A stretch of DNA of 64,000 bases from Acetobacter ascendens (lineage in GTDB: Bacteria > Pseudomonadota > Alphaproteobacteria > Acetobacterales > Acetobacteraceae): contig NZ_CP015164.1 in the NCBI RefSeq assembly GCF_001766235.1, forward strand, positions 1,721,501-1,785,500. Reading direction: 5' to 3'. The translations under genes and the position numbers were made by a program. Of this stretch, positions 15,080 through 47,741 are shown piece by piece. Positions within the stretch are counted from its first letter, which is position 1. Each line of letters starts with the position of its first letter. A model generated the notes under the pieces. The model saw only the letters and a program-made list of their open reading frames with translations. It did no database searches and was not told where the DNA came from.

Positions 15080-15082
15080 CTA

Positions 15083-15929: not shown

Positions 15930-15932
15930 TAG

Positions 15933-21666: not shown

Positions 21667-22695
21667 TCAGACCGAGAGTTCTTTGCGAACAATTTCCACG
21701 CCTGCGCCTAAGGCATTGAGTTTGCCTCGGGCCACTTCACGCGACAAAGGAGCCATACCGCAGTTGGTGCAGGGATAAAGCTTGTCGGCATCGACAAACT
21801 GAAGTGCCTTTCGCAAGATGTCAGCGACCTTCTCGGGCGTCTCAATGGTATTGGTTGCCACATCAATAGCGCCGACCATGACTTTTTTTCCACGAATGAG
21901 TTCAATCAGATCCATCGGAACGCGGGAGTTCTGACACTCCAGTGAAATCAGATCGATATTGGATTTCTGAAGTCTGGGAAAGATCTCTTCATATTGTCTC
22001 CATTCCTGACCAAGAGTATTTTTCCAGTCAATATTGGCTTTGATGCCATAGCCGTAGCAGATATGGACTGCGGTTTCGCATTTCAGTCCTTCAATAGCTT
22101 TTTCTAATGTTGCGATACCCCAGTCGTTCACCTCATCAAAGAAAACATTGAAGGCGGGTTCATCAAACTGGATGATATCGACGCCTACCGCCTCCAGCTC
22201 TTTGGCTTCCTGATTGAGGATTTTGGCGAAGTCCCAGGCCAGTTTCTCGCGACTTTTATAGTGGCCGTCATAAAGTGTATCGATCATGGTCATAGGGCCA
22301 GGCAGCGCCCACTTGATGGGCTTCTTCGTCAGTGTGCGTAAAAACTTCGCATCCTCGACAAAGACCGGCTTCTCACGCGTCACGGTGCCTACGACTGACG
22401 GCACACTTGCATCGTAGCGGTTGCGAATTTTAACCATCTGACGGTTTTCGAAGTCGACACCACTGAGATGCTCAATAAACGTTGTGACGAAATGCTGACG
22501 TGTCTGCTCACCATCGCTGACGATATCAATTCCGGCACGATCCTGATCGTCCAGGGTCAGACTTAGCGCATCCTGTTTACCCTTGATCAGTTCCTCACCC
22601 TGCAATTTCCAGGGTGACCAGAGCGTCTCGGGTTTGGCAAGCCATGAAGGTTTGGGCAGGCTGCCGGCCGTTGAGGTAGGGAGCAGTGTTTTCAT
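21667..22695 (-). CDS. mesD: Folate-independent methionine synthase, MesD type
   Basis: At 342 residues this is a short MetE-like protein containing only the catalytic barrel. The zinc ligands are visible: HICYGYG near residue 192, the later ECQ segment, and CTNCGMAPLSREVARGK near 315. It lacks the folate-binding N-terminal domain of classic MetE. Its partner upstream is a DUF1852 protein (MesX), which defines the MesD class described by Price and colleagues: methylation of homocysteine independent of folate and of B12, needing MesX and oxygen. The methyl donor is unknown. It begins 27 bases after mesX and is likely cotranscribed. Confidence 0.85.
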   Translation of the reverse strand: MKTLLPTSTAGSLPKPSWLAKPETLWSPWKLQGEELIKGKQDALSLTLDDQDRAGIDIVSDGEQTRQHFVTTFIEHLSGVDFENRQMVKIRNRYDASVPSVVGTVTREKPVFVEDAKFLRTLTKKPIKWALPGPMTMIDTLYDGHYKSREKLAWDFAKILNQEAKELEAVGVDIIQFDEPAFNVFFDEVNDWGIATLEKAIEGLKCETAVHICYGYGIKANIDWKNTLGQEWRQYEEIFPRLQKSNIDLISLECQNSRVPMDLIELIRGKKVMVGAIDVATNTIETPEKVADILRKALQFVDADKLYPCTNCGMAPLSREVARGKLNALGAGVEIVRKELSV

Positions 22696-22722
22696 AAGAG
22701 ATGGCCTTGTGTTTCTGATTGA

Positions 22723-23706
22723 TCAAACGGCGTAACTGGCAGACCACTGCTCAAGAACATCGTGATACGGCTTGATGAAATTCTCTTCCGTATATTTCCC
22801 CTGTGCGGTCGCCAGCTGGCTGCGCTCCTCGCGATCGTAGACAATTCGGGTATTTGAATAGTCCTGATTCTTCAGGCTCGGCTGATAACAATCGGCAGCA
22901 GCAGAATTGGCATTGTAAATTTCAGGACGGTAAACTTTCTGGAAAGACTCCATCGTGCTGATGGTGCTGATAAGCTCAAGAGCGGAGTAATCAGACAGCA
23001 GATCGCCGGAGAAATAGAACGCCAATGGTGCCATGCTATTGGGTGGCATAAAATAGCGAACCTGCATTCCCATTTTTTCAAAATAGTAATCCGTCAGGGA
23101 AAATTCGCGCTGCTGATATTCAATACCCAATACAGGATGCTGATTTTCTGTTCGATGATAGATCCGATTGGTTGAGACACTAAGGCATATGACAGGGGGC
23201 TTCCTGAAATTATTTTTGTACGCCGTGGAATTCACAACGCTCTTAAAAAGATTTCCATGCAAGTTCCCGTAATTATCAGGAACGCTAAATTCTGGCTTAT
23301 CTTTGTTATATTTCGGTAGCAACACGCTGAAGTCATAGTCCCGCACATACGAGGAAAAACTGTTCCCTGCGAGACCATCTATGCGCTTGTTGGCTTTTTT
23401 ATCGACAATCGTCGTGTTCAGAACTTCGATCAGCGGAAAGCTGTCGCTTTTGCCAGAAAAATCGATATCCATGTCGACGGAAATGATTTCAAGCTCGACG
23501 GAATAGCGATCCCTATTGGGGTTATCCCAATGGGCCAGATCATTGAAACGATTGTCAATCATCAGCAGGACATTACGCAGGTTTTCCTGACGGCTTTCCC
23601 CTCTCGCCAGATTGGCGAAATTGGTCGTGAGGCGTGTCTTATCGGATGGATGATAGTTCTCATCAAAGCGAAGTCGATTGATACTGAATGTAAAGTCCTT
23701 AATCAT
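22723..23706 (-). CDS. mesX: DUF1852 protein, MesX
   Basis: The 327-residue protein belongs to DUF1852, renamed MesX after its genetic requirement with MesD in methionine synthesis. Conserved-looking segments include FTFSINRLRFDENYHPSD at the start, YSVELEIISVDMDIDF, GLAGNSFSSYVRDYDFSVLLP and DYSNTRIVYDREERSQ near the end. It has no signal peptide or membrane helix. It may be an oxygenase that supplies the methyl group. It heads the mesX-mesD operon and diverges from a cobalamin riboswitch. Confidence 0.85.
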   Translation of the reverse strand: MIKDFTFSINRLRFDENYHPSDKTRLTTNFANLARGESRQENLRNVLLMIDNRFNDLAHWDNPNRDRYSVELEIISVDMDIDFSGKSDSFPLIEVLNTTIVDKKANKRIDGLAGNSFSSYVRDYDFSVLLPKYNKDKPEFSVPDNYGNLHGNLFKSVVNSTAYKNNFRKPPVICLSVSTNRIYHRTENQHPVLGIEYQQREFSLTDYYFEKMGMQVRYFMPPNSMAPLAFYFSGDLLSDYSALELISTISTMESFQKVYRPEIYNANSAAADCYQPSLKNQDYSNTRIVYDREERSQLATAQGKYTEENFIKPYHDVLEQWSASYAV

Positions 23707-25473: not shown

Positions 25474-25681
25474 AAAGAGTGACTTTTGAATGAGAATTTT
25501 CTCAGCGTAAGAATTGAGGAGATTCTGATGAAGAGTGATCGCTTTACTGACGCCCAGATCATGGGTGTGATCCGCCAGGCTGAGGGCGGTGTCCCGGTTC
25601 CTGACCTGTGCCGGGAGCATGGGATTAGCAACGCCACGTTTTACCGGTGGCGCGCGAAATATGGCGGCATGGATGCTTCGA
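25459..25681 (+). mobile_element. IS3-family remnant (left end and orfA start)
   Basis: A left-end-like sequence (TGGTAATCCCCCCATAAA) precedes an orfA starting at 25528 with MKSDRFTDAQIMGVIRQAEGG and HGISNATFYRWRAKYGGMDAS, the IS3/IS407-type helix-turn-helix. IS1380 interrupts it at the TCGA ending at 25681, after 51 codons. orfB and the right end are absent from the window. Confidence 0.8.
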
Positions 25682-27338
25682 CGCGGAAATCTCACGGAAG
25701 GGTTGTACATCGGGTTAGATTATGAAAAAGTCTATTTTGTGTAAAAGAAATTTTCGTAAGCTATAAGAAAACCCGATGCAGACAGAGTGTAGCGCAGGCG
25801 CGTATGAATTTCCAGCCTCCTATGGACGGCGTGTTGTAGCCCGTTTTGACGGGGGTCGCATGAGTTCGGATGGCGGTGTCATCCTGGTAAAGCAGGTCGA
25901 TGATAGTCTGGGGTTCAGCCGCCGCTTTGCTGCATGTTTTCGCGATGAGCGGCATCCTGCCTTTGTGGAATACCGGGTTGAAGACCTTGTCCGTCAGCGG
26001 ATCATGGGCCTGGCACTGGGCTATGAAGACCTTAATGACCATGACGCTTTACGTCATGATCCTGTCATGGGTCTGGTATCGGGACGTCTGTCAGGAAGCC
26101 GGGCCAACTGTGCGGCACTGGCAGGAAAATCCACGCTGAACCGGCTAGAGCGCAGTGGGCAGCAGGCAGATCGTTACTGCCGCATCATTGCTGATCATGA
26201 GGCCCTGGCTACCCTGTTCGTGACGCTTTTCATGGACCAGCATGAGCGCGCACCCGCCCGGATCGTTCTGGATGTGGATGCCACCGATGACCGTATCCAT
26301 GGCCATCAGGAAGGCCGGGCCTTTCATGGATATTACGGCCATAACTGCTATCTTCCCCTGTATGTCTTCTGCGGGGACCATCTCCTCAGCGCTACCCTGC
26401 GCACGGCAGACAGGGACCCGAGGAAGGAAGCACTGGCAGACATCCGCCGGATCGTGGAGCAGATCAGGAGCCGCTGGCCCCGGGTGCGTATCCTGGTGCG
26501 TGGGGACAGCGGTTTCGCCCGGGACAGTCTGATGACATGGTGCGAAGACAACCACGTTGACTTCCTGTTCGGGCTTGCAGGCAACACCCGCCTGTATGAC
26601 CGGATTGCCTCTTTGTCCGCTGAGGTTCGTGACGAAGCCGCCACGACAGGCAAAGCGGCGCGCGGCTTTGCCTCCTTTGACTGGATCACAAAGGACAGCT
26701 GGACGCGCCGCAGGCGGGTCGTGGCCAAGGCCGAATGGCGCCACGGCAACCGCTATCATCGCTTTATTGTCACCACGCTACCGCAGGGAATGTCCGACCC
26801 CCGCCATCTCTACGAACAGATTTACTGCGCACGCGGGGATATGGAAAACCGCATCAAGGAATGCCAGATGGATCTGTTCTCAGACAGGACCTCGTCCCAC
26901 ACCATCCGGGCCAACCAGCTCCGGCTGTGGTTCTCGGCCGCAGCCTATGTCCTGCTGACCGCTCTGCAAAGACTGGCCCTTGGCCAGACCAGCCTGGAGA
27001 CGGCGACCTGTGGCACCATACGCGCACGACTGCTCAAAATCGCGACACGTGTAACGCTCAGCGTCCGTCGGATTGTCCTGTCCATGCCGGACATGTTCCC
27101 CTGTCAGCATGAATTCGCCCTCGCTCATGCACGATTGCGAAGGCTCCGGCAGGCCATCTGAAGAAACAGACAGTGCACAGACCACATAGCTTCCACCAAC
27201 ACTGCCTTCTCAGGCCGTGACACCCTCACTGCGTTCAGAACCCGCCGCCAGAAGCACAATATCGTCAATATTCCAGATCGGGCTCCTGTGGGATGACTGA
27301 ATTCTACAAAATGACCTGAAATTGCCTCAAGTGTGAGA
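25682..27338 (+). mobile_element. IS1380 copy 1, right tip missing
   Basis: Starts CGCGGAAATCTCAC directly after TCGA (25678-25681). Compared with the complete copy at 46042-47706, it ends eight bases short at GTGTGAGA, where an IS1111-type element begins. The expected full end at 27346 and its TCGA are gone. Confidence 0.92.
25776..27161 (+). CDS. IS1380 transposase, copy 1
   Basis: The 461-residue DDE transposase has ARFDGGRMSSDGGVILVKQVDD at the N-terminus, IVLDVDATDDRIHGHQEG near 165 (first Asp), RVRILVRGDSGFARDSL near 235 and RGDMENRIKECQMDLFSDRTS near 360. It differs from the copy at 46227-47612 at only a few residues (for example Tyr16 versus Cys16, and Glu versus Lys in HLYEQIY). Although the IS has lost one tip, the gene is intact and could act on the other copy. 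Confidence 0.93.
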   Translation: MQTECSAGAYEFPASYGRRVVARFDGGRMSSDGGVILVKQVDDSLGFSRRFAACFRDERHPAFVEYRVEDLVRQRIMGLALGYEDLNDHDALRHDPVMGLVSGRLSGSRANCAALAGKSTLNRLERSGQQADRYCRIIADHEALATLFVTLFMDQHERAPARIVLDVDATDDRIHGHQEGRAFHGYYGHNCYLPLYVFCGDHLLSATLRTADRDPRKEALADIRRIVEQIRSRWPRVRILVRGDSGFARDSLMTWCEDNHVDFLFGLAGNTRLYDRIASLSAEVRDEAATTGKAARGFASFDWITKDSWTRRRRVVAKAEWRHGNRYHRFIVTTLPQGMSDPRHLYEQIYCARGDMENRIKECQMDLFSDRTSSHTIRANQLRLWFSAAAYVLLTALQRLALGQTSLETATCGTIRARLLKIATRVTLSVRRIVLSMPDMFPCQHEFALAHARLRRLRQAI

Positions 27339-29461: not shown

Positions 29462-29646
29462 GCAGGACTTGCCGGTCAGAAACCGCTTCATCATACCAGT
29501 GCTCAGTCTACAGCGCCTCCGTCGGCATGGGACGAGAGGGTGGCAGACCTGCCTCCGACTGGTAACTTGTCTCTCCGACATTCTTTCAAAAATCATCTTT
29601 CGATTGGCGTTCAGAGCATCAGACTGTTGATTTTCACTGAAAACTG

Positions 29647-31387
29647 GGTTCTTCCGCACTTTTCGTGATGATGTTTTTTGATTATGCGGGCTGAAGGACA
29701 CGCGCCCTGAGGAGTTCGAAGCCTGCTCTTCCGAACATGGTTCGCTTGATCATTTTCAGTCGGCTGATCTGTCCTTCAACCGGGCTGGTTGTCCAAGGTG
29801 TGACAAGAGACGCTTCAATGGCAGCCGCATCCCGTTCAAGCGCGGGAATCAGACGTGACAGCAGCGTCGTCTTTCCTTCTTCCAGCAGAGCCTTCAGATC
29901 GCCTCCCGTGCAGGTGTCACCCCTTTTACAGAGCAGGGTCTGCATTTTCCTGAGCCAGCAGAGTGTGACGGCAAGGTGCGGTTCAGCTTCCAGAAGGGCA
30001 GGAACCAGCAGTCCCTCCTGTCCGGCAGATAACGGATCCTCTGCGAGGAGAAGCCGCGCAAGTCTGCGTCCCCGAGGTGCAACGACATGCGCGGAAGGAA
30101 CGGGTTTCGCGGAACATCCCTGTCGCGTCGCCACCCATTTCCAGACGGTGCCATATTGTCCTGCAAAGCCCTGCTCCAGGAGTTCCCGCCATAGCTGACG
30201 ACTATTGCGACATCCTTCGGACCATCTCTTTTCCAGGTGGGCTGTGTAAGGCACGAGTATGCTGCGTGACGGAACCGTTCTTTTCCATGGTGGTGCATGG
30301 CCCCGCTGAAACCAGCGCCGCACGGTTTTTCTCTCTACCCCGATCGTTGTGGCGATAGCCTGAATGCTGTGTCCCGCTGCTTTCAGGGCAAGAGCTTCCT
30401 TGAAAAGAATGTCACGCCGTTCCCCAGAGGCTGACCTGACGACCGCCTGCGCCTCTTCTGGATGCGCTCTGATTGTTTCAGATATTTTGCTTACGACCGT
30501 TGATACGTTCATCTGTCGTGTCAGGGGCCTGACAGTCGTCGTAAAACGGTCCAGAATGCTGACAAAAGCGTCTGACAGGTTCTTCAGCAGATGCCAGCGG
30601 CCTGGCACCTGAAGAGCGGATGGTGCGCCTCTGCGGCATCCGTCTGCATAAGTACCGGCACGGTCTCTGGCAATGATTTCAATACCGGGGTGGACCTGCA
30701 GCCATCGGGCAAGGGTATCAGCGTCCCGATCTGGCAGGAGGTCAATGACATCATTTTTCTCAAGATCGACCACAATCGTTCCATAGTGATGTCCCCGCCG
30801 CCATGCCCAGTCATCCACCCTCACCACACGTGTAAGGGCCGTGCCTTTTGTGGTGTTCTGCACACGTGAGAGAAGACGGCGGACAAGAGTATCCGCGCTG
30901 ATGGGGCAACACAGGCGCACGGTCATTCGTGCTCCAGCGGAACCGCCCAGGGTGTGGGCGATATAATAATGAAGATCGGCAAGACGTGTGGTCTGTCTGC
31001 CATGACGCACGGTTATCCCCTCAAGGGGCATGACAAACGTCCGACGTGGACAAAGCATCGTCTGGCAGAAAAAGCGCGGCACAGAAACGATCAGCGTGGC
31101 TGGACGGCCCTGCCATGGAAGATCCGCGAGTTTTCTCTGATAGAAACTGTGAATGCGTTGTGTCGGGCACTGACAGTCCGGACACACTGCACTCCGTTTT
31201 CGCAGACCGACTTCGATCTCCACTCTGTTATCCAGTGCAACAACACGACGAACGACGAGGGAACGGGGAAGATCAAGAGACCGAAGGCGTGACACTGGGG
31301 AATATCCATGAAAGTGAACGACTTTCTGGATTTCCCAGTTCCGGAACCTCAGTACAAGATACCCATCACGAAAAGTGCGGAAGAACC
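29647..31387 (-). mobile_element. ISL3-family element
   Basis: A perfect 24-bp inverted repeat bounds it: GGTTCTTCCGCACTTTTCG at 29647 and its complement ending at 31387, total 1741 bp. The 8-bp flanks (GAAAACTG left, TGGATATT right) do not match, so no target duplication is visible. Confidence 0.9.
29682..31295 (-). CDS. ISL3-family transposase
   Basis: The 537-residue protein has the ISL3 plan: N-terminal zinc-finger (CPDCQCPTQRIHSFYQRKL, CPRRTFVMP), the DDE core with VVRVDDWAWRRGHHYGTIVVDLEKNDVIDLLPDRDADTLARWL, EIIARDRAGTYADG and WHLLKNLSDAFVSIL, a helix-turn-helix insert (AAGHSIQAIATTIGVERKTVRRWF) and the C-terminal TSPVEGQISRLKMIKRTMFGRAGFELL. It is full length and intact. Confidence 0.93.
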   Translation of the reverse strand: MSRLRSLDLPRSLVVRRVVALDNRVEIEVGLRKRSAVCPDCQCPTQRIHSFYQRKLADLPWQGRPATLIVSVPRFFCQTMLCPRRTFVMPLEGITVRHGRQTTRLADLHYYIAHTLGGSAGARMTVRLCCPISADTLVRRLLSRVQNTTKGTALTRVVRVDDWAWRRGHHYGTIVVDLEKNDVIDLLPDRDADTLARWLQVHPGIEIIARDRAGTYADGCRRGAPSALQVPGRWHLLKNLSDAFVSILDRFTTTVRPLTRQMNVSTVVSKISETIRAHPEEAQAVVRSASGERRDILFKEALALKAAGHSIQAIATTIGVERKTVRRWFQRGHAPPWKRTVPSRSILVPYTAHLEKRWSEGCRNSRQLWRELLEQGFAGQYGTVWKWVATRQGCSAKPVPSAHVVAPRGRRLARLLLAEDPLSAGQEGLLVPALLEAEPHLAVTLCWLRKMQTLLCKRGDTCTGGDLKALLEEGKTTLLSRLIPALERDAAAIEASLVTPWTTSPVEGQISRLKMIKRTMFGRAGFELLRARVLQPA

Positions 31388-31415
31388 TGGATATTTCATT
31401 TTTTTATATAAAAAC

Positions 31416-31525
31416 TAATTTAATTAATAATTGCTGAGATCATGATTGATATGGATCATGACTGCAACAGAGGGGAAGGCGTAGTTATGCGCGCTATTAC
31501 AACAAACTATCCCCCTAAGGTTTGC
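31416..31525 (+). promoter_or_regulatory. Duplicate of the narG promoter/leader, upstream of the cupin-like gene
   Basis: This 110-bp segment matches the region upstream of narG (40158-40267, opposite strand) with only two differences. It includes the palindrome CATGATTGATATGGATCATG at 31441-31460, which contains an FNR-like site TTGATATGGATCAT, and extends down to the ribosome site. It should give the cupin-like gene the same oxygen-responsive control as narGHJI. Confidence 0.85.
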
Positions 31526-31527
31526 AT

Positions 31528-31969
31528 ATGAAAAAAAATTGTACTTTCTGCGCTGCTTATGCTGGGCCTCCATAGTGCGGCTATGGCTGAAACATACACT
31601 TTTACCCCAGATGACTTTACGTATAAAACCGTGCATGACGTTGCAAAAATTGCGCCTGTTGTTATGGATGAAACCGGAAAACCCAAAACCGTTTTCCTGA
31701 AAATTCCTAAGGGCAATATCTTACCACCGCATGGTGTGGAAAAAGACTATCGTGTTTTCACGGTAATTTCAGGCCCAGTATTCTGGGGTGACGGTGATGT
31801 TGTAGACCCCGCAAAAGAAAAGCGCTTGCCTGCAGGTAGCGTCATTGTTGTCCCACCCATGAAGGGGCATCATTGGGTTGCCGCTCGTGAGGGGGATATT
31901 TTAATGCAAGGTGTTGTTGTTCCTGACAAAACATTCGTGCCTGTCATCGCAAACAAAATTGCGAATTAA
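31528..31969 (+). pseudogene. Secreted cupin-like protein, frameshifted at A8 after the start codon
   Basis: The gene encodes a small cupin (KTVFLKIPKGNILPPHGVEKDYRVFTVISG, GSVIVVPPMKGHHWVAA). The ATG at 31528 is followed by eight As, which throw the frame out; with seven As it reads MKKIVLSALLMLGLHSAAMA, a clean signal peptide joined to the mature domain. The strong shared nar-type promoter and spacing support this start. An internal ATG at 31559 would give a shorter protein with a poor signal. The run could be a mutation, a read error or a phase-variable switch. Function unknown; likely periplasmic. Confidence 0.75.
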
Positions 31970-31977
31970 ACAAAAAA

Positions 31978-32003
31978 CACCCGGCGCTTTTTTGTGCCGG
32001 GTG
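31978..32003 (+). terminator. Terminator after the cupin-like gene
   Basis: CACCCGGC (31978-31985) pairs with GCCGGGTG (31996-32003); the reverse strand has GCCGGGTGTTTTTTG, so it could also end the nar transcript from the other side. Confidence 0.8.
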
Positions 32004-32048
32004 CCCTGACTGTAATTAAGTAATCCTATTAAGCTGTAAAAATTTTTC

Positions 32049-32534
32049 TTATTTTTTATATGCCATAAATTTTTGAAAAACTTCAGAAACGGTAGTCGAA
32101 ATAATAACACCTATACATATTACGCTAATAGTTTTTATATCTGAATGAAATCCGCCCAAGCTCAGCAATAATGTTGTTGCTGCTGCGGGAGGATGATTTG
32201 CTTTACAAAGGCCCTGCCCCAAGACTGTCAGGGATATCGCCAGGACACTCGCAGCCATACGGTTCCAAGTAATGTGGTCAATACTCATAGCAGCGGGGGC
32301 TGCCAAAGCGTCAAATATCCACAAAGAGAACACCGCAGCAATGATCCCGATTGCATGCCCTGCCAGTGTGTTCCAAACTCTTGAAGCGTCCTGTTGTGGC
32401 GTAACAATATGAATAAAAATAGTTGGCCCCAAGCTAGGAAAAAGCAATGGGTAATGCGTAAAATATGCTAATGCCCCCATGACCCCTGTAGAGACCAGAA
32501 CGGCAAATGTTTTAAAAATTATTTCCAAAACCAT
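32049..32534 (-). CDS. HPP-family integral membrane protein, candidate nitrite transporter
   Basis: The 161-residue protein has about four membrane helices and the HPP family signatures FPSLGPTIFIH (near residue 35) and ANHPPAAATTLLLSL (near 120). Start at 32534 is preceded by GAGGG. Plant and cyanobacterial HPP proteins transport nitrite. Being last in the narGHJI-ppiC row, it may export or import nitrite made by NarG. This function is inferred from family and context; no narK gene lies within this nar cluster. Confidence 0.75.
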   Translation of the reverse strand: MVLEIIFKTFAVLVSTGVMGALAYFTHYPLLFPSLGPTIFIHIVTPQQDASRVWNTLAGHAIGIIAAVFSLWIFDALAAPAAMSIDHITWNRMAASVLAISLTVLGQGLCKANHPPAAATTLLLSLGGFHSDIKTISVICIGVIISTTVSEVFQKFMAYKK

Positions 32535-32583
32535 AAAAGCCCTCAGATTTTTTAGCCGCAAGATAGAAAGTATTGTTATACAG

Positions 32584-33438
32584 TCAGGAAGGTTTTTTCC
32601 CTGTGCAGTTTCCTCCATCCGGCCAACCGGTGCTGGATGCCTGCGCTGTTGTGCCAGAAAACACGTCAAACCCTTTAATTCGCGCTTTAGAGGCAAGCAT
32701 GGCAATGTAGTTCTGCACGCCCTGCTTCCAACTACTATCTTCAAGGAAAATCCGAATACGCTGTTTTTCTTCTTTATTTAACGCTTCGACCTTTAGCTCA
32801 GCGGAAAACTTTTTTAAAAGCTGCACAATATGCACGCCATATCGTGTTTCTATCAGACCATCATAGAATTCACCTTCTTGGACAGTTTGAAGGGCTTTCC
32901 TGAACTCTGGCAAAAGATCTTGCTCTTGCATTATGCCTAAATCCCCCCCTCTACTGGAGGAAGGACATTCTGAATAACGTGCTGCTACTTGTTCAAAATC
33001 TATGGCGTTATTTTTCAGGTGGTTCAGAAACTCTTGCGCTCTTTTTTGCGCTGTTTCCACTGAACCCGGCATAGATTTGTCTGCATATACCAAAATATGC
33101 CGCACATGCATGGCGGGACCAGCCTGCATATGGGCAATATTGGACGCACTCCAGCGCTCAAGCTCATCATCCGTTGGTGTTGGCACCTCGACCTCCCGCT
33201 CTAGCAAAGCCTGAATGAGCGCTTCATCGGTCAAACTGTCTCCGCTCTTAGTGTCGAGCTTTTTCCGGGCTTCATCAAGCAGGAGTGTTTTTACCACCAG
33301 CGCTCTTGCGGCATCATTCCGTTGCGCCTGAAGAGACGCTGTTTTGTGGTGCGGCATTTCTGCCTGAACATCCTCCAATGAAATGGCGGTGTCATTTACA
33401 AAGATTGTGTGACCGGTTTGATTGGGAGAACTCATCAT
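32584..33438 (-). CDS. Parvulin-type peptidyl-prolyl isomerase of the nar operon
   Basis: The 284-residue protein has an N-terminal helical chaperone region and a PpiC parvulin domain at about 125-215 (MHVRHILVYADKS, ARYSECPSSSRGGDLGIM, DGLIETRYGVHIVQLL). No signal peptide, so it is cytosolic, resembling NifM-type isomerases. It begins 10 bases after narI. Such genes recur in proteobacterial nar operons and are thought to help fold NarGH. The C-terminus ends with a Cys/Gly/Ser-rich tail. Confidence 0.85.
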   Translation of the reverse strand: MMSSPNQTGHTIFVNDTAISLEDVQAEMPHHKTASLQAQRNDAARALVVKTLLLDEARKKLDTKSGDSLTDEALIQALLEREVEVPTPTDDELERWSASNIAHMQAGPAMHVRHILVYADKSMPGSVETAQKRAQEFLNHLKNNAIDFEQVAARYSECPSSSRGGDLGIMQEQDLLPEFRKALQTVQEGEFYDGLIETRYGVHIVQLLKKFSAELKVEALNKEEKQRIRIFLEDSSWKQGVQNYIAMLASKARIKGFDVFSGTTAQASSTGWPDGGNCTGKKPS

Positions 33439-33447
33439 GTTCGGGGC

Positions 33448-34169
33448 TCACGTCTCATCATTAGCGACATGGTGGTTCTGGCGGACAATCTGCCACCCCG
33501 GCCGAAAAACGTACCAGATAGGAGCAGAGATAACATGCACCAACCGGGTAAACGGCGTTAGCAGAAACAACGTCATGCCGGTTACCAGATGTAGCTTGTA
33601 AACCCACGGGATAGTGGTGAGCAGATTTGGCAGGCCTGACCGGAATGTCAGAACACCCCGGCACCATTCCCCTAATATTTCCATTGTGTGCCCGTCTGAA
33701 TGCATCATGGAGTGTGGCAACCCAAGAATTCCGAGCCAGAGTTGCGCATAGACAAACAGAAGAATGAATAGGTCAGTTGGGCGGCTGGTGGCCTTGACGC
33801 GCTTGTTAAAGACTCGGCGGTAAATAAGCCCTGCGCCACCAACAGCAGCGAACACTGCAAACACACTTCCGGCACCGACAGCCAGCAACTGGTGGGCGTG
33901 AGCACTCAGGCCCAGCATCTCAGTCAGTTGGGGCGGGGTCAGAAGCCCCGCAGCATGGCCCATCATCAACCCCAGCACACCAACGTGGAAGCTATTACTG
34001 GCCCACTTCAGGTACTGGCCCACTTCAGGGTTTTTCTTTCAAGGAACTCACTCGACTCAGCGCGCCATGAAAACTGGCTTCTATCGAACCGCGCCCAACA
34101 CCCGATGACAAAGACCGACAAACATAGATACGGATAGATTTGGAACAGAAAGTACTCGACCCAGTTCAT
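33448..34169 (-). pseudogene. narI: Respiratory nitrate reductase gamma subunit, broken by a 17-bp duplication
   Basis: NarI is the cytochrome b membrane anchor that passes quinol electrons to NarH. The N-terminus (MNWVEYFLFQIYPYLCLSVFVIG...FLERKTLKWAS) and the rest (NSFHVGVLGLMMGHAAGLLTPP..., SMMHSDGHTMEIL, YKLHLVTGMTLFLLTPFTRLVHV) are in different frames. The break is a tandem 17-bp repeat at 33996-34029; removing one unit gives continuous ...TLKWASNSFHVG..., matching the family. Heme-ligand His candidates are all present. The start overlaps narJ (ATGA). Confidence 0.92.
33996..34029. repeat. 17-bp tandem duplication inside narI
   Basis: TACTGGCCCACTTCAGG occurs twice in immediate succession (33996-34012, 34013-34029), adding 17 bases to narI and shifting its frame. 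Confidence 0.97.
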
Positions 34170-34861
34170 GCTCTTGCCTCCACATGATCCTTGCCTGAAT
34201 AGCCAGTACACGCTGCGCTACATGCCGCAGGTGAGGAGGCATGATCGAACGTGACAGGTTTTTCTTCATACCGCATATCAAGGGTTGCGGGATCATCCAT
34301 CACGGCTGTGTCTCTTAAATGCGCGTGCACAACTTCTTTGTCAGGAAGACGTGTGGATTCTTCCTGTAAAATTTGGAAAATACCAGAATATATAGACCGC
34401 CTTTCTTGAAGTCTTCTGTTCAGAACTGCAAGAATATCCACTATTTCTGTCAGAAGCTCCTGTGTTTTCTGAGGGTCACACACAGACGCATACTCTAGAT
34501 AGGCGGGAAGAAAGTCTGGTAACTCGTTCCCCTGCAAATCCAGACCGGCAGAACGATATTCCTCTAACAGATCCACCATTGCCTGCCCGCGCATACGGGA
34601 ATCCCCATGCACATGCTGGAAAAGGTAGAGCGATAAAGAGGGGGACATATCGAAAAGCTGCACATACTGGCTTTGCGCATCCAGAAGTGGTGTTTTTTCA
34701 AGAAAAATCCTGATTTCTTCGAAAGCTTTTTTCTGTTCTATAGAGAGATTGGAAAGCGAAATCAGCGTGCCTAATTCTACACTTTCCTGCTTTATAAGTT
34801 CATCAGGGTACCGAAGAAAAATAGCGCTTAACTGACAGAGGAATGACAGAGACTGAGACAT
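34166..34861 (-). CDS. narJ: Nitrate reductase assembly chaperone NarJ
   Basis: The 231-residue helical protein of the NarJ/TorD family includes SFLCQLSAIFLRYPDE at the start, YVQLFDMSPSLSLYLFQHVHGDSRMRGQAMVDLLEEYRSAG (the family signature) and LPDFLPAYLEYAS. It guides Mo cofactor insertion into NarG and is not part of the final enzyme. I place the start at 34861, three bases after the narH stop; a longer in-frame start inside narH is unlikely. The stop overlaps narI. Confidence 0.93.
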   Translation of the reverse strand: MSQSLSFLCQLSAIFLRYPDELIKQESVELGTLISLSNLSIEQKKAFEEIRIFLEKTPLLDAQSQYVQLFDMSPSLSLYLFQHVHGDSRMRGQAMVDLLEEYRSAGLDLQGNELPDFLPAYLEYASVCDPQKTQELLTEIVDILAVLNRRLQERRSIYSGIFQILQEESTRLPDKEVVHAHLRDTAVMDDPATLDMRYEEKPVTFDHASSPAACSAACTGYSGKDHVEARA

Positions 34862-34863
34862 TG

Positions 34864-36396
34864 TTATCCCCCTTTCACCGTATGACGACGAATTTCCGGT
34901 CTTACACCCTGCTGCCCCCATAGGCTGAAGCGGCTTTTCCCGGAGGTTGTGCTCTGGTTAAAATGAAAACCCGCGATGCCGCGCTGATGGTAAGGGTCTT
35001 CTGCATCTTCTTTATGCGCGGTTGGCACAACGAAGCGATCTTCATAATTCGCAATAGCCAGAAGACGGTACATGTCCTGAATTTGCTGCTCTGACAGCCC
35101 TGCCCCCTGCAAGAGAGAGGCGTCACGTACATTCTCAATCTGGAAACGGCGCATATAGGCCCGGAGCGCCAGCAGCCGGTTAAGAGCCGCTTTGACGGGC
35201 GCTTCATCCCCCGCAGTGAGCATATTAGCCAGATATTGGACCGGTATACGTAGGCTGTTGATATCTGGAATACCATTCAGGGTTTCCAGACTACCAGCAG
35301 AAGCTGCTTCCTGAATGGGCGACAAGGGCGGGATGTACCAAACCATAGGCAGGGTGCGGTATTCAGGATGGAGCGGAAAGGCGATTTTCCATTCCTTGAT
35401 CATACGGTACACTGGCGAGCGTTGGGCCGCGTCAATCCATGCGTCAGGTATGCCGTCCCGACGTGCCTGCTCAACCACTGCCGGGTCGTGTGGGTCCAGA
35501 AAAAGGTCGAGCTGCTGCTCATACGCATCTTCAGGGTTTGTTGTAGCCGCAGCGGTTTCAATTTTGTCGGCATCATACAGCATGACGCCAAGATAGCGGA
35601 TACGCCCCACACAGGTTTCAGAGCAGACGGTAGGCTGGCCACTTTCTATACGGGGGTAGCAGAACACACATTTTTCTGATTTTCCTGTGTGCCAATTGTA
35701 ATAAATTTTCTTGTAAGGGCAACCGCTGACACACATGCGCCACCCACGACATTTTTCCTGATCAACCAGAACAATGCCGTCTTCTTCCCTTTTATAAATA
35801 GCACCTGATGGACATGATGCAACACAAGTCGGGTTAAGGCAGTGTTCACACAGTCGCGGGAGAAACATCAGAAAGCTATTTTCGAACTTTCCATATATTT
35901 CTTTTTCTACATCACGGAAATTATAGTCTTTGGAACGATGTTTAAATTCTGTGCCCAGAGACTCTTCCCAGTTCGGGCCTCGTTCAATTTTATCCATGAC
36001 CTGCCCGGTAATACGGGAATACGGCCGGACAGACGTAACAACCTGCTCGCTTTTTTCGTTCTGCAATGCAGCGTAATCAAAATCAAATGGTTCATAATAA
36101 TCGTCAAGTTGGGGCAGGTTTGGGTTTGCAAAAATTTTCGAAAGAATACGCCATTTTCCACCAATTTTAGGGCGGAGTGACTCTCCCTTTCCCAACTGCC
36201 AGCCGCCATGCCACAGTTCCTGATTTTCCCACTGCTGCGGAAAACCGACACCGGGTTTACTTTCGACATTGTTAAACCATGCGTATTCAACACCGTCACG
36301 GTTGGTCCAGACCTGTTTGCACGTCACACTGCATGTATGACACCCGATGCATTTATCGAGATTAAGAACCTTACCTATCTGCGCACGTATCTTCAC
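34864..36396 (-). CDS. narH: Respiratory nitrate reductase beta subunit
   Basis: At 510 residues, NarH carries four iron-sulfur clusters. The first Cys group is CIGCHTCSVTCKQVW (16-30); further groups are CEHCLNPTCVASCPSGAIY, CRGWRMCVSGCPYKK, where Trp replaces one Cys to give the [3Fe-4S] site, and CVFCYPRIESGQPTVCSETCVGR. All ligands appear present. It relays electrons from NarI to NarG on the cytoplasmic face. It follows narG by 53 bases. Confidence 0.96.
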   Translation of the reverse strand: MKIRAQIGKVLNLDKCIGCHTCSVTCKQVWTNRDGVEYAWFNNVESKPGVGFPQQWENQELWHGGWQLGKGESLRPKIGGKWRILSKIFANPNLPQLDDYYEPFDFDYAALQNEKSEQVVTSVRPYSRITGQVMDKIERGPNWEESLGTEFKHRSKDYNFRDVEKEIYGKFENSFLMFLPRLCEHCLNPTCVASCPSGAIYKREEDGIVLVDQEKCRGWRMCVSGCPYKKIYYNWHTGKSEKCVFCYPRIESGQPTVCSETCVGRIRYLGVMLYDADKIETAAATTNPEDAYEQQLDLFLDPHDPAVVEQARRDGIPDAWIDAAQRSPVYRMIKEWKIAFPLHPEYRTLPMVWYIPPLSPIQEAASAGSLETLNGIPDINSLRIPVQYLANMLTAGDEAPVKAALNRLLALRAYMRRFQIENVRDASLLQGAGLSEQQIQDMYRLLAIANYEDRFVVPTAHKEDAEDPYHQRGIAGFHFNQSTTSGKSRFSLWGQQGVRPEIRRHTVKGG

Positions 36397-36448: not shown

Positions 36449-39400
36449 TCATCCCTTCCCTTTTTCGGTGGTGTCAAACCAGTTCACATCGTTCATTTTA
36501 CGTAAGAAAATAAATTCATCACGATTAGACCCAACCGGCCCGTAATAATTGAATGACCATGAAAGATGTGCATACCCACCCACCATATGGGTGGGTTTCA
36601 TGACAACACGCGTCACTGAATTATGAATACCGGCACGCTTGCCAGTAATTTCACTACCCGGCACATTGGCGGTGCGCTCGGCCGCATGGTACATAAACGC
36701 TGCACCAGACGGAATACGCTGGCTGACAACAGCACGCGCCACCAATGTCCCGTTACAGTTAAAAGCTTCTACCCAGTCATTATCGACAATCTTGAGCCGT
36801 GTTGCGTCATCCTCACTAATCCAGACAACCGGGCCACCACGACCAAGTGTCAACATAATCAGGTTTTCAGCATAGGTGCTATGGATGCCCCACTTTTGAT
36901 GAGGGGTCAGGAAATTCAGCGGGATAACCGGGTTTCCGTTATCATGCGCAGCCCCTAAGGCCTCTGGCGTTGAGTGTGTTTCAATAGGTGGCTTGTATGT
37001 GGCAAAGGTTTCCCCAAAGTCACGGAGCCAAGGGTGATCCTGATAAAACTGAAGCCGACCTGTTAATGTACGCCATGGTACATATTCGTGCACATTCAGC
37101 CAGTTAGCGGTGTAGGCTTCCTGCGTTGACGAGACACCGCTCCATACCGGCGAGTTTATGACCTGCCGAGGCTGTGTAATGATATCTGCAAATGTAATCC
37201 GGTCACCGTCTCTTCCGCCCAGACGGTGAGAAAGGTCACGCCCGGTTTTGTCTGAAAGAGACTTCCAGCTTCTGGCTGAAACTGCACCATTTGTTTCCGG
37301 TGCCAGCATAAGTACCGTCTCAACCGCATCGGTATCCTGAAAAAGAGAAGACCTCTCGGGATATTTCACTGAGACTGACGGATGTGTCTGCTTAAGTTCC
37401 TGTATCTCTGCTGTTGTATCCCACTGTAACCCGTGGTCTGCGTTCCCCTTCTTTTCCAAACCCGGACCTAACGTAATGTAGCGATCATAGACCTCATCAT
37501 AACGTCTTGGCACAATAGCAATCTGGGGCATTGTCTTGCCCGGTACACCAGCTATCGGGTGCTCTGACCGCCAGATCTCGTCACCATAAGGCTGCGCCAG
37601 CTCGGCTGGTGTGTCTTTTTGCAAGGGTGACAGAACAACATCTGTTTCACTCTCCAACTGGCCTTTTGCCAACCGTTGGAACGTCTCAGCCAAACCACGG
37701 AAAATGCTCCAGTCCGTGCGGGCTTCCCATGCCGGGTCAACAGCAGCCTGCAGCGGATGAATAAACGTGTGCATGTCAGACGTATTCAGGTCTGATTTTT
37801 CATACCATGTTGCGGTTGGCAAAACGACATCGCTGAACATTGCTGTTGTGCTCATGCGGAAATCAATAGTTGTCAGAAGGTCCAGTTTTCCTTCTGGAGC
37901 CTTATCATGCCATTTTGCAAAATCCGGCCTCTGGTCACTATCCTCGTTCATGACATTGTTAGGCGCGCCCAACAGGTGCTTCATGAAATATTCATGTCCT
38001 TTGCCGCTGGCACCTAGCAAGTTTGACCGCCAGACAAACATGTTACGCGGCCAGTTCTCCGGTGCATCGGGGTCTTCACAAGCAAGCTTGATGGAACCGG
38101 ATACAAGAGCGTCCTTCACATATGTTGCAGGATCCTGCCCACTTTGAGCGGCTTTTTGACCGAGCTGTAACGGATTGACCGCAAGCTGTGGCGCACTTGG
38201 CAGCCAGCCGCGTCGTTCAGCCTGAATGTTACAATCAAGCACGGTTTGAGGCCATTTTTCAGGCGAGGCCAGAGGTGAAAGCTGCTCCCTTGGTGTTAAC
38301 TGCTCATAACGCCACTGGTCTGTATGTGCATAGAAGAAGCTTGTGCCGTTCATTCGGCGTGGCGGGCCGCCCCAATCCCCCGCAAACGCGACTGGCCCCC
38401 ACCCTGCGGATGGGCGTAGCTTTTCCTGCCCCACATAGTGCGCCCAGCCGCCGCCGTTCTGCCCTATGCACCCACACAGCATGAGCATGTTCAGAATAGC
38501 ACGGTACGTCATGTCCATATTGTACCAATGGTTGAGGCCTGCCCCCAGAATAACCATGGAGCGCCCCTGCGTAGCTTCCGCATTTCGGGCAAAGCCGCGT
38601 GCTACAGCAATACATCTTTCACGCGGCACACCGGTAATGGCCTCCTGCCAAGCGGGCGTACCGGGCACATTACTCTCATAATCCGGCCACGCGGTAGCGT
38701 CCGCAGAAAGCCCATAATGTGCGGTCATTAAATCAAAAACAGTGGCGCACTGGACATGCTCGCCTGTTTTCAGGGCTATGCTTCGTACCGGAACCTTACG
38801 GGCATGAACTGGCTCGGCCTCATTCAAACCAAAGCGCCCGTCTCCACCAAAATATGGAAACAGTACTGTGGCCATCTCTCCACTCTCACCCAGAGAAAGA
38901 GACGGTGTTAAGGGCGCACCTGTTACGGCATCAAATGGTTCAAGGTTCCATTTCCCCTCGTTTTCCCACCGAAAACCGGCAGACCCGCGCGGCATAGCAG
39001 GGCAGGCCTGTTCCCGGTCCCAAACCAGAGGCTTCCAGTCAGCTTCTGTGGTGTGGTACCGGTCATCCGCCAGATCAGCCGCGCGGAGCAGCCTGCCGGG
39101 TTTCTGACCTGCATCGCTGGGGTCCAGGATCACCAGAAATGGAAGGTCTGTGTACCGGGTTGCATAGTCCTGAAAATAAGGGACCTGACGTTCAAGATAG
39201 AACTCACGAAGAATGACATGCACCATGGCCAATGCCAGTGCAGAGTCCGTTCCTTGGCGAGGGTGCAGCCATAAATCTGCAAATTTAGCGACTTCAACAT
39301 AGTCCGGAGCAATGACTACACTTTTTGCGCCCCGATACCGTGCTTCTGTATAAAAATGAGCATCGGGTGTGCGGGTCATGGACACATTGGAGCCCCAGAC

Positions 39401-40150
39401 CAGCAGATAGCCCGAATTATACCAGTCAAGACTTTCTGGCACGTCTGTCTGGTCACCAAATGTCTGAGGGGACGCGGGAGGCAGGTCACAATACCAGTCA
39501 TAAAAAGACAGGCATGTTCCGCCAAGAAGGCTTAAATAGCGTGTTCCGGCAGCGTAACTCAGCATAGACATGGCTGGAATGGGCGAAAAGCCCACAAGCC
39601 TGTCAGGCCCCCATGTTTTGATGGTATGGATATTTGCTGCGGCAATCAGTTCGTTTGCCTCATCCCAAGACACCCGAACAAAGCCCCCCAGCCCACGCTG
39701 TGCCTGATAACTCTGACGGGCGATCGGGTCGTTTTGGATGGCTGCCCAAGCTGAGACCGCATCCAGCGTCTTACGTTTTTCGCGCCACAACTCAACCAGC
39801 CGTTTGCGCACCAGCAGGTAGCGAATACGGTTACTGCTATACAGATACCATGAGTAGCTTGCGCCACGCGGGCAGCCACGTGGTTCGTGGTTGGGCATAT
39901 CTGGTCGCGTGCGCGGGTAATCGGTCTGTTGTGTTTCCCACGTGACCAGACCACTTTTAACATAGATCTTCCAACTGCAACTGCCGGTGCAGTTCACGCC
40001 ATGCGTTGACCGGACAATTTTCTCACTCTCCCACCGGGACCGGTAGGTATCCTCCCATGCCCGGCTTTCATCTGTATTGACGCCATGGCCACCCGCAAAC
40101 TTACCTTGATATTTTTTGAAAAAGAGAAGTCTGTCGATGAGTTGGCTCAT
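36449..40150 (-). CDS. narG: Respiratory nitrate reductase alpha subunit
   Basis: This 1233-residue Mo-bisPGD enzyme reduces nitrate to nitrite. The N-terminal [4Fe-4S] site HGVNCTGSCSWKIYVKSG (about 50-66) has the His ligand typical of NarG. The Mo Asp lies in SFYDWYCDLPPASPQTFGDQTDVPES near 220. Further landmarks are VVLPTATWYEKSDLNTSDMH near 790 and the C-terminal SWSFNYYGPVGSNRDE. Length equals E. coli NarG. No Tat signal, as usual. Intact, first in narGHJI-ppiC-HPP. The narI defect would leave it without its quinol donor. Confidence 0.97.
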   Translation of the reverse strand: MSQLIDRLLFFKKYQGKFAGGHGVNTDESRAWEDTYRSRWESEKIVRSTHGVNCTGSCSWKIYVKSGLVTWETQQTDYPRTRPDMPNHEPRGCPRGASYSWYLYSSNRIRYLLVRKRLVELWREKRKTLDAVSAWAAIQNDPIARQSYQAQRGLGGFVRVSWDEANELIAAANIHTIKTWGPDRLVGFSPIPAMSMLSYAAGTRYLSLLGGTCLSFYDWYCDLPPASPQTFGDQTDVPESLDWYNSGYLLVWGSNVSMTRTPDAHFYTEARYRGAKSVVIAPDYVEVAKFADLWLHPRQGTDSALALAMVHVILREFYLERQVPYFQDYATRYTDLPFLVILDPSDAGQKPGRLLRAADLADDRYHTTEADWKPLVWDREQACPAMPRGSAGFRWENEGKWNLEPFDAVTGAPLTPSLSLGESGEMATVLFPYFGGDGRFGLNEAEPVHARKVPVRSIALKTGEHVQCATVFDLMTAHYGLSADATAWPDYESNVPGTPAWQEAITGVPRERCIAVARGFARNAEATQGRSMVILGAGLNHWYNMDMTYRAILNMLMLCGCIGQNGGGWAHYVGQEKLRPSAGWGPVAFAGDWGGPPRRMNGTSFFYAHTDQWRYEQLTPREQLSPLASPEKWPQTVLDCNIQAERRGWLPSAPQLAVNPLQLGQKAAQSGQDPATYVKDALVSGSIKLACEDPDAPENWPRNMFVWRSNLLGASGKGHEYFMKHLLGAPNNVMNEDSDQRPDFAKWHDKAPEGKLDLLTTIDFRMSTTAMFSDVVLPTATWYEKSDLNTSDMHTFIHPLQAAVDPAWEARTDWSIFRGLAETFQRLAKGQLESETDVVLSPLQKDTPAELAQPYGDEIWRSEHPIAGVPGKTMPQIAIVPRRYDEVYDRYITLGPGLEKKGNADHGLQWDTTAEIQELKQTHPSVSVKYPERSSLFQDTDAVETVLMLAPETNGAVSARSWKSLSDKTGRDLSHRLGGRDGDRITFADIITQPRQVINSPVWSGVSSTQEAYTANWLNVHEYVPWRTLTGRLQFYQDHPWLRDFGETFATYKPPIETHSTPEALGAAHDNGNPVIPLNFLTPHQKWGIHSTYAENLIMLTLGRGGPVVWISEDDATRLKIVDNDWVEAFNCNGTLVARAVVSQRIPSGAAFMYHAAERTANVPGSEITGKRAGIHNSVTRVVMKPTHMVGGYAHLSWSFNYYGPVGSNRDEFIFLRKMNDVNWFDTTEKGKG

Positions 40151-40157
40151 AGCAAGA

Positions 40158-40267
40158 GCAAACCTTAGGAGGATAGTTTGTTGTAATAGCGCGCATAACT
40201 ACGCCTTCCCCTCTGTTGCAGCCATGATCCATATCAATCATGATCTCAGCAATTATTAATTAAATTA
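40158..40267 (-). promoter_or_regulatory. narG promoter/leader with FNR-like site
   Basis: The palindrome CATGATCCATATCAATCATG at 40223-40242 contains, on the minus strand, TTGATATGGATCAT, close to the FNR consensus TTGAT-N4-ATCAA. It lies about 75 bases before the narG start. The whole 110-bp segment is repeated at 31416-31525. An IS is inserted exactly at its upstream edge. Confidence 0.8.
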
Positions 40268-40521
40268 CGGCGTGTCGTCAGTTAAGCCCTGAGAGTGGCA
40301 CGTGAGGGTTGTACTTTGTGTCTGCGTGTGCTGACTGTTTTCCCGTTTTTTTGGGGAGACAGACAGATGCGGCGCTATAGTTTACGCGATGACCAGTGGG
40401 AGCGGATAAAGGATCTTCTTCCTGGTCGAGAAGGCTATGTCGGCGGCACTGCGGTGAACAACCGTCTGTTCGTGGAGGCGGTGCTGTATCGCTATCGCGC
40501 CGGTATTCCATGGCGCGACCT

Positions 40522-41812
40522 GGAGGGTTCTAAAAACCCCCTGGTTTTGAGGTCTTCTGTATGATTCTATTTCTTCTGCGTTGATTGAGGGAATGGCGAT
40601 ATGAAGCAGTCTGGTTTCTTTGATGTTGAAGAGCGTCTTGCCCGGCTGAGTGGGCTGGGCGATCAGCTCGAAGCGTTTTCCCGGACTGTGGATTTTGAAG
40701 CGTTCCGTCCTGATCTGGACAAGGCCCTGGCGTATTCCGATGGAAGCAAGGGCGGACGACCGCCATTTGATCCTGTGCTGATGTTCAAGATCCTGGTGAT
40801 CCAGACGCTCAACAATTTGTCTGATGAGCGGACGGAATATCTGATCAACGATCGCCTCTCCTTTATGCGTTTCCTTGGGCTGGGACTTTCAGATCGGGTG
40901 CCGGATGCCAAAACGGTCTGGCTGTGTCAAAAGCGTCTGACCCAGGCGGGTGCGATCGATGGGCTGTTCAACCGCTTTGATGCGACCCTGCGTAACGCCG
41001 GGTATTTGCCGATGTCAGGCCAGATCCTGGATGCCACGCTGGTAGCGGCTCCGAAGCAGCGGAACACCAATGCAGAGAAAGCGGATCTGCGAGCAGGCCG
41101 TATTCCTGAAGACTGGCAGGACAAACCCGCAAAGCTGTCGCACAAGGATCGTCATGCGCGCTGGACACTGAAGTTCACGAAGGCGAAGCGGCAGGATGAT
41201 GGAACCATGCCATCCAGCGATCTCGCCATCCCGTTCTTTGGCTATAAATCGCATGTTTCCATCGATCGGAAATACCGGTTCATCCGCAAATGGAAAACAA
41301 CGCATGCCGCTGCCAGTGATGGCGCGCGATTGAGAGAGGGGCTTCTGGATAAAACCAATACGGCCTCAAGTGTCTGGGCCGACACGGCCTATCGCTCAAA
41401 AGCCAACGAAGACTTCATGGAAAAGCAGGGCTTTGTCTCCAAGGTTCATCGCAAAAAGCCGCATCTCAACCCTATGCCCCGGCATATCCAGAAATCAAAT
41501 GCTGGAAAGTCGGTCATCCGCTCGCGTGTCGAGCATGTCTTTGCCGATCAGAAGTCACAGACGGGGCTGTTTGTCCGGACTGTCGGTATCAGTCGAGCCA
41601 CCATGAGGATCGGGCTCGCCAATATCGTCTACAATATGCGCCGCCTCCTCTTCCTCGAAAGATTGAACGCGAGCGCATAGCCATCCAGCGAGAGACAACT
41701 CCCAATCTGCTCAAAACGCAGACTGGACGCCATCGCAAAAACCGTCAATCAAATCGCCAAAACCCAGAAATTACCGGCCAAGCACATCAATCAAGGGTTC
41801 TTCGATCCCTCC
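40522..41812 (+). mobile_element. IS5-family element nested in the IS427-type element
   Basis: Imperfect 18-bp ends GGAGGGTTCTAAAAACCC and GGGTTCTTCGATCCCTCC bound 1291 bp, flanked by a 4-bp ACCT duplication (40518-40521, 41813-41816). Confidence 0.9.
40601..41680 (+). CDS. IS5-family transposase
   Basis: The 359-residue transposase begins MKQSGFFDVEERLARLSGLGDQLEAF and contains GGRPPFDPVLMFKILVIQTLNNLSDE, the first catalytic Asp in GQILDATLVAAPKQRN, WADTAYRS, and the C-terminal SRVEHVFADQKSQTGLFVRTVG with the Glu. Intact and of the usual IS5-group length. Confidence 0.92.
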   Translation: MKQSGFFDVEERLARLSGLGDQLEAFSRTVDFEAFRPDLDKALAYSDGSKGGRPPFDPVLMFKILVIQTLNNLSDERTEYLINDRLSFMRFLGLGLSDRVPDAKTVWLCQKRLTQAGAIDGLFNRFDATLRNAGYLPMSGQILDATLVAAPKQRNTNAEKADLRAGRIPEDWQDKPAKLSHKDRHARWTLKFTKAKRQDDGTMPSSDLAIPFFGYKSHVSIDRKYRFIRKWKTTHAAASDGARLREGLLDKTNTASSVWADTAYRSKANEDFMEKQGFVSKVHRKKPHLNPMPRHIQKSNAGKSVIRSRVEHVFADQKSQTGLFVRTVGISRATMRIGLANIVYNMRRLLFLERLNASA

Positions 41813-42428
41813 ACCTTCCTGCCCGTTTCGGTGACTGGAAAAACGTGCACCGGCGTCTGCGCCGCTGGTGTGAAAGCGGCGTCATCGAACGGATATTTCG
41901 TTATCTGGCCGCTGATTACGACAACGAATACATGATGATCGACAGCACAATTGTCCGAGCGCATCAGCATAGTGCCGGAGCTCTCAAAAAAGGGGCACGG
42001 ATCAGGCCATCGGACGATCACGAGGCGGGCTAACTACAAAGATCCATGCCATCTGCGACGCTCTGGGCAATCCAGTGGAACTCGGCATCACACCGGGACA
42101 GGATGCCGATATCACCCAGGCAGAACCACTTCTGGAAAACATCGAACCGGATGCTTTCCTTGCTGACAAGGCGTATGACGCGGACAGGTTGATCGATCGG
42201 CTGATACAGCGCGGGATTACCCCGGTCATCCCGCCAAAACGCAACAGAACGACACGACGGAAAACCGATTTTTCTCTCTACCGCGAACGGAACCTTGTTG
42301 AGAGGTTCTTCAATAAACTCAAGCAGTTTCGCGCTATCGCAACCCGCTACGATAAACTGAAATCGACCTTCCTCGCAGCCGTGCAGTTCGCCTCAATCAT
42401 CATCCTGCTTAACTGACGACACGCCGTA

Positions 42429-42976
42429 GGAAGCGTAACATTTAACTGGAAGGTTGCCTTAAAGGCAGGCTCATCCCAGCCGGGGAACATGCGGCGGGCA
42501 TCGGCCACCTCAAACTGCGTGACCAGCATCCGCTTTGTCTCGCCGGTAGGGGCCGTGTAGTCATCCACATAAATGCCGTTCGGCGTCTTCAGGATCGGCC
42601 CGGAATAGGTGATGACCAGCGTATGCGCGCCCTTGCTGACCTTTGCCGGGAAATGCAGCGTTGCGGTCTCAGCGGCATCGTCCTGCGTGATCCCGGCTTT
42701 CACGCCGTTATCCAGAACAGCCTCAGCCAGATGCAGGCCTGCCTGATTGAGAGTCACATCCGTGGTGGAGGTGCGCACGTCAACCTGAATGGTTTCCTGC
42801 CCAGTGAGTTTAAGGTTGTCTATATCTGTTGAAATATTGATACCGTACGAGACAGGCACAACAGTTTTTGGCAACTGTCCCGCGGCGCGCTGAAAGGAGA
42901 ACACCTGTTCCGCACAGACCGGGTCGACCAGCGGCAGCCCTGCCAGCAGGGTTGTCAAAGTCAGAAGCCGACGCAT
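42429..42976 (-). pseudogene. M1-family aminopeptidase, N-terminal fragment
   Basis: A signal peptide (MRRLLTLTTLLAGLPLVDPVCAE) is followed by the M1 N-terminal beta domain (LPKTVVPVSYGINISTDIDNLKLTGQETIQVDV, FEVADARRMFPGWDEPAFKATFQLNVTLPT). About 183 codons remain; the GAMEN and HExxH catalytic parts are absent. The frame runs into the IS at 42428. The rest of the gene is not in the window. Confidence 0.88.
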
Positions 42977-47706: not shown

Positions 47707-47741
47707 TCGAATTCAAGTTTTAAAGGCAGGGGAGAAAACCC

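Follow-up and report, generated by a model that had tools for sequence, protein, structure and literature searches.

Matus-Garcia et al. 2012, 'Promoter propagation in prokaryotes', are said to have described the duplication of promoters within a genome, by which a promoter comes to precede an unrelated gene. In PMC11111574, promoter capture is presented as the joining of a promoter to a silent coding region, partly by illegitimate recombination. As a process promoter capture is already described, and the case found in the window (the whole 64,000-nucleotide stretch of Acetobacter ascendens DNA analysed here) is a tidy new instance. As in those accounts, a promoter has been duplicated within the genome and now stands before an unrelated gene; unlike them, the window holds no more than two copies, which are inverted, lie 8.6 kb from each other and reach down to the ribosome site, and the recipient frame is broken as read. 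The promoter itself has a described counterpart in the class II FNR promoter of narGHJI. The FNR consensus is TTGAT-N4-ATCAA, and class II promoters have the centre of the site some 41.5 bases upstream of the transcription start. A paper whose title names Escherichia coli narG as a class II FNR promoter is cited in PMC8139620. Like it, the promoter in the window has a palindrome with a single mismatch to the consensus and, at a fitting distance, a -10-like hexamer, but this -10 is weak. Among the titles listed in a literature search, none dealt with this promoter or with a nar-linked cupin in acetic acid bacteria.

The first-pass annotation of the window had reported that 110 bp from upstream of narG, including an FNR-like palindrome and reaching the ribosome site, recur with two mismatches before a cupin-like gene, that the copies do not match beyond this segment, and that they bracket the nar cluster in opposite orientation. 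All of this was confirmed: the copies are identical at 108 of 110 positions, the match ends at both edges, the palindrome lies one mismatch from consensus, and the copies face inward with the nar cluster between them (Table 1). The duplication is real and far above chance. In gene direction, the mismatches are A at 31461 against G at 40222 and C at 31513 against T at 40170. A gap of 7 bases separates the narG copy from the ATG of narG, and one of 2 bases separates the cupin copy from the ATG at 31528. The copy, complete down to the ribosome site, is confined to this genome among those searched. The reading that we consider likely is promoter capture, in which the narG promoter and leader were copied before the cupin gene within an IS-rich, decaying nar island, in one lineage.

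Table 1. Positions in the window of the duplicated segment, its elements and the surrounding genes.
Feature	Positions	Strand	Remark
ISL3-family element outside cupin-side copy	29617..31387	-	extent is the match to the element in L040
Cupin-side copy of narG promoter/leader	31416..31525	+	108/110 identical to reverse complement of 40158-40267
FNR-type site TTGATATGGATCAT, cupin side	31446..31459	+	1 mismatch in 10 to TTGAT-N4-ATCAA
Weak -10-like hexamer TAGTTA	31482..31487	+	32 bases from FNR-site centre; poor match to TATAAT
Shine-Dalgarno-like CTAAGG, brought along by copy	31515..31520	+	position read; function putative
15-codon frame opened by ATG behind copied leader	31528..31575	+	out of frame with cupin
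A8 run at frame break	31531..31538	+	A7 in L038
Cupin-like frame	31532..31969	+	Cupin_2 E=0.012, below cut-off; 95% identical to L038
HPP-family membrane protein gene	32049..32744	-	convergent with cupin
PpiC-type isomerase gene	32584..33438	-	
narI	33448..34169	-	split by 17-bp tandem duplication near 33996-34012; remainder is ORF 33448-34023
narJ	34166..34921	-	
narH	34864..36396	-	named by position; full-length vs G014
narG	36449..40150	-	
narG-side promoter/leader copy, likely source	40158..40267	-	homologous to G047 narG leader
FNR-type site TTGATATGGATCAT, narG side	40224..40237	-	1 mismatch in 10 to TTGAT-N4-ATCAA
IS element abutting narG-side copy	40268..42426	+	second IS nested within
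Nested IS, DUF772/DDE_Tnp_1	about 40522-41812		inside IS 40268..42426

A near-identical promoter preceding two unrelated genes, narG and the cupin gene, in one genome could also result if the segment were a small mobile element (MITE-like, or a mobile-promoter repeat) that inserts before genes, and the region is indeed IS-rich, with IS elements lying outside both copies. Such an element should be present in several dispersed copies, but a search of the whole genome (2,999,217 bases in 4 contigs) returned the two copies and, as the next best match, 15 bases, and the 48 other genomes of the genus yielded at E <= 0.01 matches of 27 and 19 bases only, with no copy of the segment. Moreover, the segment is homologous to the narG leader of a congeneric genome, G047, and therefore looks like the resident narG promoter. 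A mobile repeat was rejected on copy number, and we regard it as extremely improbable. Plasmid records searched with positions 31380-32050 gave no match.

The edges of the duplication were also considered. The outer edge of the narG-side copy coincides with the end of an IS element, which we take to be IS5-like; the IS may therefore have fixed this edge, and an originally longer copy is possible. An extension past the cupin-side edge was sought by comparing the 28 bases outside the cupin copy with the corresponding stretch of the G047 narG promoter, but 14 of the 28 were identical, a level reached by 495 of 5000 shuffles, so that a longer original is unsupported. Other rearrangements are evident in and around the window. 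Inverted copies of a 1.66-kb transposase element (25677-27338 and 46050-47711, 98.9% identical) bracket the nar region, and two inverted 1,428-bp copies with 100% identity are found at 13665-15092 and 15920-17347. The IS element beside the narG promoter has cut an M1-family peptidase gene, of which an N-terminal piece is left at 42429-42976; beyond the IS, at 43203-46084, lie genes for an alginate-export-family protein and an MFS transporter, presumably narK-like. A gene for a MesX putative oxygenase adjoins a cobalamin-independent methionine synthase-like gene at 21667-23706. On the second contig of the source genome (L046, G000:C2, 1-2730), the IS type adjoining the narG promoter interrupts an HPP gene, with TA on both sides; this stretch also carries an IS-cut cupin remnant and is 100% identical to the window over 528 bases. 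The names IS3-like, IS5-like, flavohaemoglobin, Rrf2, DUF488, DinB and narK are tentative assignments, made in part by eye.

In both copies, the order of elements towards the gene is the FNR-type site, TAGTTA and CTAAGG, and the spacing of the hexamer from the centre of the FNR-type site would fit a class II arrangement. Ahead of the narG ATG, at a distance of 77-82 bases, an FNR-like site is present in the window (1 mismatch), G047 (2), G024 (2) and G010 (3). Of 66 narG upstream regions, 24 contain FNR-type sites with at most 2 mismatches, compared to 3.0 expected from shuffles. The genome encodes a Crp/FNR-family protein, matched to the family above cut-off, in which C-x2-C-x7-C and ETVSR were read by eye; we take these to be marks of an oxygen-sensing FNR. 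The 110-base narG promoter is probably oxygen-responsive, and an FNR-type protein would activate both of its copies, switching on narG and the cupin gene alike at low oxygen.

Clues on the direction of copying were obtained from the leaders of narG and of the cupin gene in other genomes. The narG leader of the window is homologous to that of G047, whose NarG is 98% identical to the window NarG: the alignment scores 24, compared to 10.1 for shuffles (sd 1.5), and none of 1000 shuffles reaches it. Three narG promoters are readable elsewhere in the genus (G047, G024 and G010), and similarity is clear in G047 only; for G024, the score of the narG copy is reached by 252 of 1000 shuffles and that of the cupin copy by 3, and for G010 by 40 and 116 of 1000, respectively. 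The ancestral promoter cannot be read in the closest relatives G014, G015, G028 and G009, because all four carry an IS 2 bases ahead of the start codon of narG (L039, L040, L041 and L045). On the cupin side, the one full-length close relative of the gene that was found is L038, a 5-kb contig from an uncultured Gluconobacter MAG; the search reached close relatives and may omit records very near this genome. Similarity between the window and L038 starts at 31527, one base before the ATG, which makes for a tight junction. The L038 cupin leader does not resemble the nar leader (9.0, compared to 9.0 for shuffles), and its best FNR match has 4 mismatches. A 19-base alignment between the two leaders was dismissed as a sign of homology, its score being the same as that of shuffles. 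Since the G047 narG leader is homologous and the L038 cupin leader unrelated, the nar leader most likely replaced that of the cupin gene and not the reverse, and copying from narG to cupin is supported by these comparisons. The unrelated cupin leader was seen in one relative, L038, and may not be ancestral there, since a transposase frame begins 188 bases upstream of the L038 cupin.

These leaders also bear on an older origin of the shared promoter. The cupin gene could have had a nar-type promoter for a long time, with gene conversion keeping the inverted copies alike, as their 8.6-kb separation could allow, and with IS insertions having removed the arrangement elsewhere. Cupin remnants beside nar in three of seven relatives would be in line with this, and the leaders that could decide the matter have been removed by IS elements in G014, G015, G028 and G009; but the L038 cupin leader is unlike the nar leader, and no second copy of the segment is present in the other genomes of the genus. 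We regard such old shared regulation as unlikely. Under promoter capture, the narG promoter and leader, with FNR-type site, transcription start region and ribosome site, would have been copied in inverted orientation to 2 bases before the cupin ATG, by illegitimate or IS-associated recombination. The recipient gene would have been positioned convergently to the 3' end of the operon, and its own leader would have been replaced by that of nar. Recombination between the inverted copies would subsequently swap both promoters and leave neither gene promoterless.

The cupin frame behind the captured leader is broken as read, which the first-pass annotation had overlooked. The ATG at 31528 is followed by eight A and opens a frame of 15 codons, MKKNCTFCAAYAGPP, before a stop; with seven A, as in L038, it opens a signal-peptide-like cupin start, MKKIVLSAL, in frame (signal peptides were judged by eye). 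Because the A8 run puts the ATG out of the cupin frame, no signal peptide is encoded in the sequence as read, and the earlier description of the gene product as secreted does not hold for it. The first ATG in the cupin frame, at 31559, lies inside the former signal peptide, 38 bases past the Shine-Dalgarno-like sequence. Of 23 differences from the L038 cupin, 16 fall at third codon positions, with 14 codons changed synonymously and 7 nonsynonymously, as in a gene under constraint, which suggests a recent break or an assembly error. Errors in homopolymer length are frequent in some long-read assemblies, and the cupin-side junction or, more likely, the A8 run alone could be wrong. The two copies differ at two positions and have unlike flanks within the same 2.86-Mb contig, which makes a false junction less credible but leaves a false A8 as likely as before. 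As an explanation of the finding, an assembly artefact appears quite improbable.

The gene product is a putative cupin. The Pfam Cupin_2 match scores 15.8 bits against a cut-off of 27.2, sequence searches of the PDB gave weak cupin matches only (E 0.19-0.48), and a single-sequence structure model was unusable (pLDDT 35). Secreted cupins of Acetobacteraceae are 25-38% identical and can be aligned across the cupin core, in which PPH, the ISG turn and a histidine of the second motif are shared (19 matching loci, with L011, L018 and L024 excluded for length and L016, L019 and L027 without a row). Unlike these, which usually have HxH...E, the window cupin has HGVEKDY at that stretch, and its metal site is therefore probably altered.

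A second frame is broken in the nar operon itself, where narI ends after 53 residues through its 17-bp tandem duplication. G014, G015 and G028 have no such duplication, and their narI is unbroken. The window narG, narH and narJ are full-length relative to G014 and 98.9-99.8% identical, and the PpiC and HPP genes are also full-length by the same comparison. In G009, narG (L036/L037, G009:C72) has two in-frame stops and a split match, a further sign of nar decay in the genus. Because the captured start is out of frame and narI is split, this strain probably obtains little secreted cupin or functional nitrate reductase from the arrangement, except if the A8 run undergoes slippage or was misassembled. 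One could go further and propose that the cupin acts in the periplasm as a functional helper of nitrate or nitric oxide metabolism, that recruitment of the nar promoter was selected, and that the A8 run and the 17-bp repeat in narI are reversible slip sites switching nitrate respiration and its accessory off and on within the population; to this we give very little probability.

The association of the cupin gene with nar was followed in other genomes. The first-pass annotation had placed the cupin under nar-type control and suggested that it belongs to the nitrate respiration module, a reading which it held would fall if the gene were missing from all other nar loci. A full-length copy is absent from all seven other nar-bearing genomes of the genus and from all 61 nar loci fetched elsewhere in the family (tblastn, E <= 0.01), several of which are cut by contig ends so that absence is weaker there. 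The 61 loci come from 60 genomes (G222 twice) out of 69 with a narG match; partial narG matches were left out (G053, G228, G285, G196, G325, G135, G138, G296 and G129). Nevertheless, a 3' remnant of the cupin, its last 19-30 residues, lies beside the nar operon in G014, G015 and G028. IS sequence truncates this remnant at window position 31909 in G014 and G028, and in G015 it is preceded by sequence that by eye resembles the end of the ISL3-type element. The same remnant also occurs on contig C2 of the source genome. Proximity to nar thus extends beyond one genome, but general membership in the module is not supported. Similarly, the segment resembles a narG promoter and leader with an FNR-type site, as nar-type control would imply, but its sharing with the cupin gene is found in one genome only. 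Given the missing full-length copies and the remnants in some relatives, we see the cupin as a gene that this nar island carries only occasionally, and not as a conserved component of nitrate respiration.

Related cupins elsewhere are distant. In the 299 genomes of the family that were searched, matches outside the genus are 27-38% identical; within the genus, cupins 28-29% identical were found in G017, G020, G025 and G040, none of which has narG at threshold. Outside the genus, G065, G069, G138, G314 and G338 have a cupin match and narG in the same genome, and the fetched nar stretches of G065, G069, G314 and G338 contain no cupin match (the narG of G138 was among those left out). Among 26 genomes of the genus of the L038 MAG, a close cupin was found in the MAG itself only, together with one 32% match in G347. 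The L038 cupin follows genes which, from their translations, we take to encode a flavohaemoglobin, an Rrf2-type regulator and a DUF488 protein, and relatives of this DUF488 gene lie upstream of narG in G047, G010 and G009. A search of the MAG for narG found none, a negative that carries no weight, and matches to the stretch downstream of the cupin go no further than the contig end.

As a natural case of promoter capture the locus is a clean one, since the donor, the recipient and both mismatches are all legible. The capture may have been of benefit. It illustrates how a gene can come under an oxygen-responsive regulator in a single step. Both promoter copies are followed by changes that break a reading frame, a caution that a shared promoter does not by itself establish function. 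Should the cupin be expressed, it would be a candidate for studies of nitrosative stress, given the genes for flavohaemoglobin and an Rrf2-type regulator beside it in L038.
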